From Candidatus Saccharimonadota bacterium (GTDB taxonomy: Bacteria > Patescibacteriota > Saccharimonadia > Saccharimonadales > Saccharimonadaceae): a stretch of 33,656 bases of DNA. Location of the stretch: NCBI GenBank assembly GCA_017512045.1, contig JAFWHE010000017.1:1-33656 (forward strand), given 5' to 3'. Numbering within the stretch: position 1 is the stretch's first letter; each line of letters starts with the position of its first letter. The position numbers were made by a program, and so were the translations under genes. Positions 20,729 to 22,910 of the stretch are shown here, piece after piece. The notes beneath the pieces were generated by a model, which saw nothing but the letters and a program-made list of their open reading frames with translations, had not been told where the DNA came from and did no database searches.

Positions 20729-20785
20729 GGGCAATTTATCCTGAACAACTTTTTTATAAAATAGGGGTTGTAAAGGTTGATTTTG

Positions 20786-20794
20786 TGCTATAAT
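20786..20794 (+). promoter_or_regulatory. Extended -10 promoter of ftsZ
   Basis: TGC-TATAAT; the possible -35 TTGTAA (20768-20773) is at a short 15-bp spacing. The predicted +1 near 20801 gives a ~29-nt leader with an SD (GTGAGGA), unlike ftsA. Confidence 0.65.
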
Positions 20795-20829: not shown

Positions 20830-22065
20830 ATGCCCGAAGTTAAGCCAACAGAGGTGGAAAGCACAGCAAGTATAAAAGTAGTAGGTGTCGGTGGTGCCGG
20901 TGGTTCTGCCGTAGATCGTATGCGCGAGGTCGGATTGTCTGGCGTGGAGTTTGTTGCAGTCAATACAGATGCGCAAGCTCTTCATCATTCCGATGCAGAT
21001 ACCAAGGTCCACATTGGTAGGGGTCTTGGTGCTGGTGGCGATCCAGAAAAAGGCCGCGAGGCGGCAGAGGAAAGCCGTGAGAACATTGGTAAGGCGTTAG
21101 ACGGAGCAGATATGGTATTCATCACTCTTGGTGCTGGTGGTGGTACTGGCTCTGGCGCTGGCCCTATTGTGGCACAAGAATCACACAACCGCGATATCCT
21201 CACTGTCGGTGTTGTGACGAAACCATTCACCTTTGAGGGTGCTCAGCGCAAGGCGAACGCAGATGTCGCCATCGAGAAGCTTTCTCATGAGGTAGACGCT
21301 CTAATTACTATTCCGAATGATCGCTTGCTCCAGACTATTGATCCACGCACACCACTCTTGGAGACATTTAAGATTGCAGATGATGTTTTGCGTCAAGGTG
21401 TTCAGGGCATTTCTGAGCTTATCACAGAACATAGCTTGATTAACTTAGACTTTGCCGACGTTAAGGCTATCATGAAGAACGCTGGTTCCGCTCTGATGGG
21501 TATTGGTCGGGCTAGCGGAGAGAATCGTGCGGTGCTCGCTGCACAGCAGGCGATTGAAAGTCCTCTGATTGAAGTTAAGATTGAGGGTGCTAGGGGTGTC
21601 TTATTCTCTGTGGCTGGTGGCTATGATATGAGCATGTCAGAGATTCAAGAGGCGGCAGAAGTTATCACTAGCGCAGTAGCGCCAGATGCCAACATCATCT
21701 TTGGTGCATCTATCCGCCCAGAGCTAGAAGACGAAATTATTATTACGGTAGTAGCGACTGGATTTGATTCTGATTATTATCGTGCTAAGGAGCGCGAAAG
21801 GCAAGAAAAAGAATTAGCAGACAGCGTAGCTACGGCAACTGTTGGTGATGCTAAGGCCGCTGCAGATACGGCGACTGCTACTCCAGCCCCAGCAGAGCCG
21901 GAAAACCATGTAGATTTGTCTGATTTGGAGGAGAAAAAACCTACTGTCGCACAAGAAGATTTTGCCAAAGACAACAAGGTGAATATGTGGGACTCCATTC
22001 GTTCAGAAGATGAGGATTTGGATGTTCCGCCATCCCTACGTGCGAAGCTACGAGGAAAGAAATAA
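20830..22065 (+). CDS. ftsZ: Cell division protein FtsZ
   Basis: Tubulin-like GTPase of 411 residues that forms the division ring. It shows [10 protein letters not shown] (17-26) at the nucleotide site, the tubulin signature [12 protein letters not shown] (101-112) and N-x-D...D-F-A-D-V T7 loop near 215. A C-terminal linker rich in Ala, Thr and Pro (about 325-385) ends in the conserved tail D-L-D-V-P-P-S-L-R plus basic residues, the FtsA-binding peptide. ATG at 20830 with SD upstream. No T-run terminator follows; the next feature is the CIRCE repeat 3 bp after the stop. Confidence 0.97.
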
Positions 22066-22068
22066 CCA

Positions 22069-22095
22069 TTAGCACTCTCGGTCTGGGAGTGCTAA
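22069..22095 (+). promoter_or_regulatory. CIRCE operator (HrcA site)
   Basis: TTAGCACTC (22069-22077), 9-nt spacer, GAGTGCTAA (22087-22095): an exact match to the CIRCE consensus bound by the heat-shock repressor HrcA. It lies 3 bp after the ftsZ stop and 19 bp before the GTG of the nrdR-like gene. No chaperone gene or hrcA is in the window. The arms also contain TTAGCA and GCTAAT 16 bp apart, so the repeat may itself overlap a weak promoter. It would form a hairpin in RNA, but without a T run. Confidence 0.85.
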
Positions 22096-22114
22096 TTACT
22101 CAGGAGGTACATAG

Positions 22115-22591
22115 GTGTCGGAAATAAAAATAGGAGATAGCAAGGTATTAGAGAGCCGGGAAGCGATGGATGGCACAATGATTCGTCGTCGCAGAGTTAC
22201 TTCTGATGGAAAAATACGTTTCACTACCTATGAGCGGATAGAAATGCCGACGATTATGGTGCGGAAACGTAGTGGAAACAGGGAAGAATTTGATCGCGAC
22301 AAATTAATCACCTCTGTTAAGCGTAGCGTTGGGAAATTTTTTAATTCATCACTAGAGGTGGAAGCCGTAGTAGATCAAGTGATGAATCGGATATATGACC
22401 TCGGTACAGAGGAAGTTACATCCAAGCAAATTGGCCAGACCACACTAGATGTCTTAGCAGAAGTGAATGAGGTGGCATATGTTAGGTTCGCCAGTGTATT
22501 CCAAGAGTTTACTTCGCTAGCAGAATTTGAGCAAATCATCAAAGAACAGAAGCGTAAAAAAGATAAAACTAAAAAGGAGGGCAAAAAATGA
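22115..22591 (+). CDS. NrdR-like regulator with ATP-cone, zinc-ribbon cysteines lost
   Basis: Encodes 158 residues. The N-terminal 45 residues follow the NrdR pattern (K-V-L-E-S-R, then I-R-R-R-R, then R-F-T-T-Y-E-R), but all four zinc-ribbon cysteines are missing; the whole protein has no Cys. Residues about 48-138 form the ATP-cone (R-K-R-S-G-N-R-E-E-F-D-R-D-K-L...V-A-Y-V-R-F-A-S-V-F), which in NrdR senses ATP/dATP to repress ribonucleotide reductase genes. The tail is Lys-rich. GTG start with SD AGGAGGT 6 nt upstream. It is preceded by CIRCE and overlaps the next gene by ATGA. Confidence 0.85.
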   Translation: MSEIKIGDSKVLESREAMDGTMIRRRRVTSDGKIRFTTYERIEMPTIMVRKRSGNREEFDRDKLITSVKRSVGKFFNSSLEVEAVVDQVMNRIYDLGTEEVTSKQIGQTTLDVLAEVNEVAYVRFASVFQEFTSLAEFEQIIKEQKRKKDKTKKEGKK

Positions 22592-22860
22592 GAGTAGTAA
22601 TCGTTTGGAATGAACAGACAGATTATGCCAGAGAGGTTAGAGATTGGATGCAGGATTTTTCGCATGATACTGGCGGAACTAAGGAAATAGAAAGTCTAGA
22701 TCCAGAAACGGTGGCAGGGGAGGATTTTGCGAAAGTTTATGATATTGTGCAATATCCAACTATCGTAGCATTGGATAATAGTGGGAAGGTCTTGCAGATG
22801 TGGAAGGGAACACCTTTGCCACAGATAGAGCAAGTAGCAGTGTGGGCAGAAGATAAATAG
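22588..22860 (+). CDS. Thioredoxin-fold protein without CxxC
   Basis: Encodes 90 residues. V-V-I-V-W-N-E starts the first strand and Y-P-T-I-V-A-L-D is a cis-proline strand typical of thioredoxins, followed by G-K-V-L-Q-M-W-K-G. There is no cysteine, so it cannot be a thiol oxidoreductase; a binding or structural role is possible. Cytosolic. The start overlaps the nrdR-like stop (ATGA) and has a strong SD (AAGGAGGG) inside the previous gene, so the two are coupled and both lie under the CIRCE site. Confidence 0.6.
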   Translation: MRVVIVWNEQTDYAREVRDWMQDFSHDTGGTKEIESLDPETVAGEDFAKVYDIVQYPTIVALDNSGKVLQMWKGTPLPQIEQVAVWAEDK

Positions 22861-22901
22861 CTAGCATTTCCCGGCTTATGTTTTATATTCAGCGGGCTTT
22901 A

Positions 22902-22910
22902 TGCTATAAT
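22902..22910 (+). promoter_or_regulatory. Extended -10 just before the HD-hydrolase gene
   Basis: TGC-TATAAT ends 8 nt before the ATG at 22919; no SD. The predicted leader is 0-2 nt. Confidence 0.65.

Follow-up and report, generated by a model that had tools for sequence, protein, structure and literature searches.

HrcA regulons are usually limited to chaperones, and repression by a roadblock within an operon is exemplified by the CodY and CcpA sites of Bacillus subtilis. Non-chaperone targets of the HrcA operator (CIRCE) are already known and include rpoH in Geobacter sulfurreducens (PMC545781), lp_1268 and lp_1880 in Lactobacillus plantarum (PMC3842655) and accessory targets in Waddlia (PMC4989314). 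In published structures of the nucleotide-sensing regulator NrdR, two CxxC motifs are conserved and arginines contact the DNA backbone (PMC9110341), and a spacer of 15–17 bp between NrdR boxes was measured as optimal for four NrdRs (PMC12051234). HrcA control of nrdR was not found in the open-licence papers searched, nor was a report linking HrcA to NrdR, ribonucleotide reductase or ftsZ, or one concerning HrcA in Saccharibacteria.

The stretch analysed here (33,656 nucleotides; the window) belongs to a genome of 732,739 bases in 30 contigs, whose nearest species-named relative in the genus is Candidatus Nanosyncoccus alces, the other relatives being mostly rumen and gut Saccharibacteria genomes. 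It contains the gene order ftsZ, CIRCE, nrdR, thioredoxin-like gene, HD-domain gene, ileS. The locus resembles the class I heat-shock regulon in that the operator agrees letter for letter and shares its genome with hrcA and the canonical chaperone targets; it differs in its target, nrdR with a thioredoxin-like gene, and in that the operator sits within an operon and lacks a promoter.

The operator between ftsZ and nrdR

The sequence TTAGCACTC-N9-GAGTGCTAA on the forward strand at 22069–22095 (in full, TTAGCACTCTCGGTCTGGGAGTGCTAA) is a perfect 9-N9-9 inverted repeat that matches the CIRCE consensus with no mismatches, as the initial annotation had it. When up to three mismatches are allowed, 0.01 matches per window are expected by chance, and the only second match in the window lies within ileS and has three mismatches. 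The site begins 3 bp after the stop codon of ftsZ (20830–22065) and ends 19 bp before the GTG start of nrdR (22115–22591), both genes being on the forward strand; the Shine–Dalgarno-like sequence of nrdR (around AGGAGGT, 22102–22108) lies outside the repeat. Judged by its sequence, 22069–22095 is a genuine HrcA operator.

The genome encodes a single HrcA (PF01628, 69.5 bits; C25:125125–125481), with its own CIRCE upstream. Six further CIRCEs with at most one mismatch precede clp, dnaK (two), dnaJ, groES–groEL and hrcA, and the predicted HrcA regulon is therefore the ordinary set plus nrdR. Five members of the genus (G102, G107, G157, G162 and G176) carry seven to ten CIRCE sites each, so that further targets besides chaperones may exist.

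Of the 174 genomes of the genus, exactly seven have a CIRCE before nrdR according to a pattern that links the right arm with the conserved IGDSKV start of NrdR; direct reading of the ftsZ–nrdR gap returned the same seven, and all of them have hrcA. The initial annotation would have been refuted by a genome without hrcA and a repeat not conserved before nrdR in relatives, whereas hrcA, further CIRCE copies and such conservation were all found. In a tree built on FtsZ, NrdR and the thioredoxin-like protein, the seven species fall within one nine-species clade (support 99/96), in which two species without the site are nested. One gain followed by two losses is a simple history consistent with this distribution, and other three-change histories may also fit; the CIRCE was probably recruited into the ftsZ–nrdR junction once, in a single clade of Nanosyncoccus-type Saccharibacteria. 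In the rest of the genus the gap mostly spans about 15–60 bases and has no CIRCE. Since the site is absent there and from two of the nine clade members, it is not essential. In one relative an additional half-site, TAGCACTC, lies a few bases past the CIRCE and before nrdR (L080:3927–3970).

The mean pairwise difference among the seven species is 3% at the 18 arm positions, 57% in the loop and 70% in the DNA just downstream, and the HrcA consensus is matched at 124 of 126 arm positions although the neighbouring DNA is saturated. On these comparisons, selection is acting on the HrcA-binding sequence in the arms. Such conservation speaks strongly against a neutral copy of CIRCE without regulatory effect, a reading which agrees with the absence of the site from two clade members and which we regard as highly improbable.

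The constancy of the arms also bears on a role at the RNA level, in which a stem–loop in the ftsZ–nrdR mRNA would protect the 3' end of ftsZ or act in processing or attenuation, with HrcA irrelevant or secondary. The hairpin is stable (about −17 kcal/mol, z −4.3), G–U pairing survives both arm changes (those of L082 and L083), the loop edges pair above random (p about 1e-4), and L079, a nested sister without CIRCE, has an unrelated perfect 11-bp hairpin in the same place, right after the ftsZ stop (L079:3936–3975; AGTCTAGCGCC-TTG-GGCGCTAGACT, then TTTTAGGTTTT). However, a hairpin alone would permit the arms to drift with compensating changes instead of holding to the HrcA consensus, no terminator or T-tract accompanies it in the window, and in L086 a strong hairpin and a CIRCE are both lacking. 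A purely or mainly RNA-level role, the chief rival reading, thus appears unlikely. Since the arm sequence is constant, DNA recognition would be at least part of the function of the arms, and DNA and RNA roles may both hold.

Two related candidates were rejected. An RNA thermometer is not supported, as the Shine–Dalgarno sequence lies outside the stable hairpin according to the RNA fold, and no intrinsic terminator of ftsZ was found on the forward strand of the gap. Among the relatives, L080 and L083 do have TTTT, and L079 offers a better terminator candidate.

Promoter context and the predicted action of HrcA

At the CIRCEs of clp, dnaK (distal copy), dnaJ, groES and hrcA, a −35 hexamer (TTGACA or TTGCAT) is located in the loop, extending into the right arm at groES, and a −10 hexamer (TACAAT, TATCAT or TATAAT) follows 16–17 bp after it; the second dnaK site is the exception among the chaperone-type sites and does not have this layout. 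With the −35 in the loop and the −10 shortly after it, HrcA bound at the promoter-bearing chaperone sites must, on this arrangement, cover the promoter. In contrast, both elements are missing from the nrdR CIRCE in all seven species: its loop contains no −35, and no −10 follows at the expected spacing. The ftsZ–nrdR gap contains no promoter-like sequence that the operator could overlap or adjoin. This absence weakens the case for an ordinary CIRCE promoter but not that for an HrcA site.

These observations bear directly on the proposal that HrcA occludes an internal nrdR promoter overlapping the CIRCE, which the initial annotation had derived from the resemblance of the arms to −35 and −10 elements 16 bp apart. 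The resemblance itself is real: TTAGCA-N16-GCTAAT agrees with the promoter consensus at eight of 12 positions (four of six in each hexamer) and a TG precedes TAATTA, and the genome's remaining CIRCEs with promoters do overlap them. Nevertheless, the same hexamers are found in every CIRCE followed by T and they score below the threshold of the promoter scan; moreover, a transcription start set by them would fall in or near the Shine–Dalgarno sequence, leaving no normal leader. As the site also has neither the TTGACA in the loop nor the TATAAT-like −10 about 17 bp further on that mark the chaperone sites, a promoter made by the arms is not borne out, and occlusion of an internal promoter is quite unlikely.

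A promoter scan found no promoter-like sequence on the forward strand between 21582 and 22881. Upstream of ftsZ, a promoter-like sequence with an extended −10 (TGCTATAAT), a −35 of TTGTAA and a spacer of 15 (20768–20794, forward strand) was chosen by eye and not by scan; downstream, the scan gave a promoter-like sequence for the HD-domain gene (22882–22910, forward strand), which suggests that the CIRCE-controlled unit ends after the thioredoxin-like gene. A transcript from ftsZ would run into the CIRCE. Because the nrdR operator has no −35 in its loop and no −10, and because the scan is empty, a roadblock to read-through is preferred over promoter occlusion, and an HrcA operator acting in this way in the ftsZ–nrdR junction is in our judgement the best explanation, held with moderate confidence.

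We infer the binding, the roadblock and the direction of the response from features read in the sequence (the site, hrcA, the other CIRCEs, selection on the arms, the absence of a promoter and the NrdR boxes before nrdDG described below). HrcA bound at 22069–22095 would block RNA polymerase reading through from ftsZ and so keep nrdR and the thioredoxin-like gene low. Heat or unfolded protein would inactivate HrcA and raise read-through, and with it NrdR and the thioredoxin-like protein; the accumulated NrdR would then repress the anaerobic ribonucleotide reductase operon nrdDG. The arrangement resembles the CodY and CcpA roadblocks of B. subtilis in that the repressor site lies downstream of the promoter and within the transcribed region, but here the roadblock is predicted from sequence, and none has been described for HrcA in the papers that could be searched. 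It is unusual for an HrcA operator without a promoter to lie within an operon, and no case was found in the open-licence literature searched.

The suggested link of heat-shock status to dNTP control is strengthened by the presence of only one NrdR in the genome and of tandem NrdR boxes before nrdDG. The alternative link to cell division is not supported, since ftsZ lies upstream of the CIRCE and has its own promoter-like sequence.

NrdR without zinc ligands and its thioredoxin-fold partner

The gene 19 bp downstream of the CIRCE does encode a nucleotide-sensing regulator, as first annotated: a NrdR homologue with an ATP-cone (PF03477, E 3.8e-16) that scores 119.7 bits (E 1e-34) against NCBIfam TIGR00244, below the curated cut-off of 124.65. 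All four zinc cysteines are absent from its zinc-ribbon-type domain, a feature that the initial annotation did not mention; the CxxC motifs are missing and the window protein contains no cysteine at all. Within the first 45 residues, 77 of 79 NrdRs of the genus have no cysteine and two have one (zinc-less relatives L079–L147, L151 and L153), while CxxC...CxxC is retained by the NrdR next to ftsZ in about 20 further families of the order. The DNA-contact residues (RRRR, R17 and R37 of Streptomyces coelicolor NrdR) are kept, ESR, RRRR and RFTTYER being invariant. The AF2 model is of moderate quality (mean pLDDT 75; N-terminal domain about 60) and matches NrdR structures.

No second, zinc-type NrdR was found elsewhere in the genome, the only other ATP-cone belonging to the class III reductase NrdD. 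Tandem NrdR boxes, ACACTATATATAGTGT and ACACTAAATGTAGGGT (L155:6588 and 6620), precede nrdDG with a 16-bp spacer, at a distance of three helical turns; the first is perfect and lies between TTGACA and TACAAT. Such tandem boxes occur in 29 of the 30 genomes of the genus that were examined, one of the 29 (L177) being weak and the remaining genome showing only half of the pair at a contig end, and none of 900 shuffled trials reached nine or fewer mismatches. Since its boxes are kept before nrdDG, the zinc-less protein appears, as these operators suggest, still to work as a repressor. The system thus shares with the NrdRs of S. coelicolor and Escherichia coli (PMC9110341, PMC12176259) the ATP-cone, the RRRR and other DNA-contact residues, the fold and the tandem boxes at a 16-bp spacing; it differs from them in the genus-wide lack of the four zinc cysteines, in the lack of boxes before nrdR and, in one clade, in the CIRCE upstream. 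No report of a zinc-less NrdR was found in the open-licence papers searched. Because operators and DNA-contact residues are preserved here in the absence of zinc ligands, this NrdR makes it testable whether DNA binding requires the metal at all.

Several order-level relatives (L069–L072, L075, L076 and L078) carry a divergent NrdR (24–31% identical) that has the zinc cysteines and does not lie beside ftsZ. Most of these relatives have it as a second copy.

In other families of the order the ftsZ–nrdR gap is about 105–340 bases long and mostly contains two NrdR-box-like sequences, implying NrdR autoregulation there at a promoter belonging to nrdR itself. No NrdR box precedes nrdR in this genome. 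The genus has lost both these boxes and most of the gap; its nrdR looks like a member of the ftsZ operon, and in one clade the nrdR CIRCE occupies the place that NrdR-box autoregulation holds in the other families. The full proposal, that the heat-shock repressor gates NrdR through a promoterless operator in the ftsZ operon, that this NrdR works without zinc and that the circuit arose once in a host-associated clade of Patescibacteria, is put forward tentatively and given slightly less than an even chance. If it is true, heat or proteotoxic stress could throttle the supply of DNA precursors and so act as a simple brake on replication under stress; in this 0.7-Mb genome, where regulation is otherwise sparse, a member of its small set of regulators is apparently connected to the only NrdR.

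The second gene of the predicted unit (22588–22860, forward strand) overlaps the end of nrdR by four bases and encodes a protein of 90 residues. Its thioredoxin fold is supported by the AF2 model (pLDDT 93.8) and by Foldseek matches to thioredoxins (E 5e-5), and the conserved proline is present in a YPT/YPA motif. The window protein has no cysteine, in agreement with its earlier description as a cysteine-free thioredoxin-fold protein, and the CxxC active site is found in none of 79 relatives. A distant relative also occurs in several other families at about 3 kb downstream of nrdR, in some of them apparently after ileS.

Elsewhere in the same genome, repeated reading frames with SYVYSGYYYW.../GYYWSSSIV... 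motifs are located at L010:8482–11791, L008:3049–3390 and L008:8830–9293, and apparently represent a family of surface-protein-like fragments.
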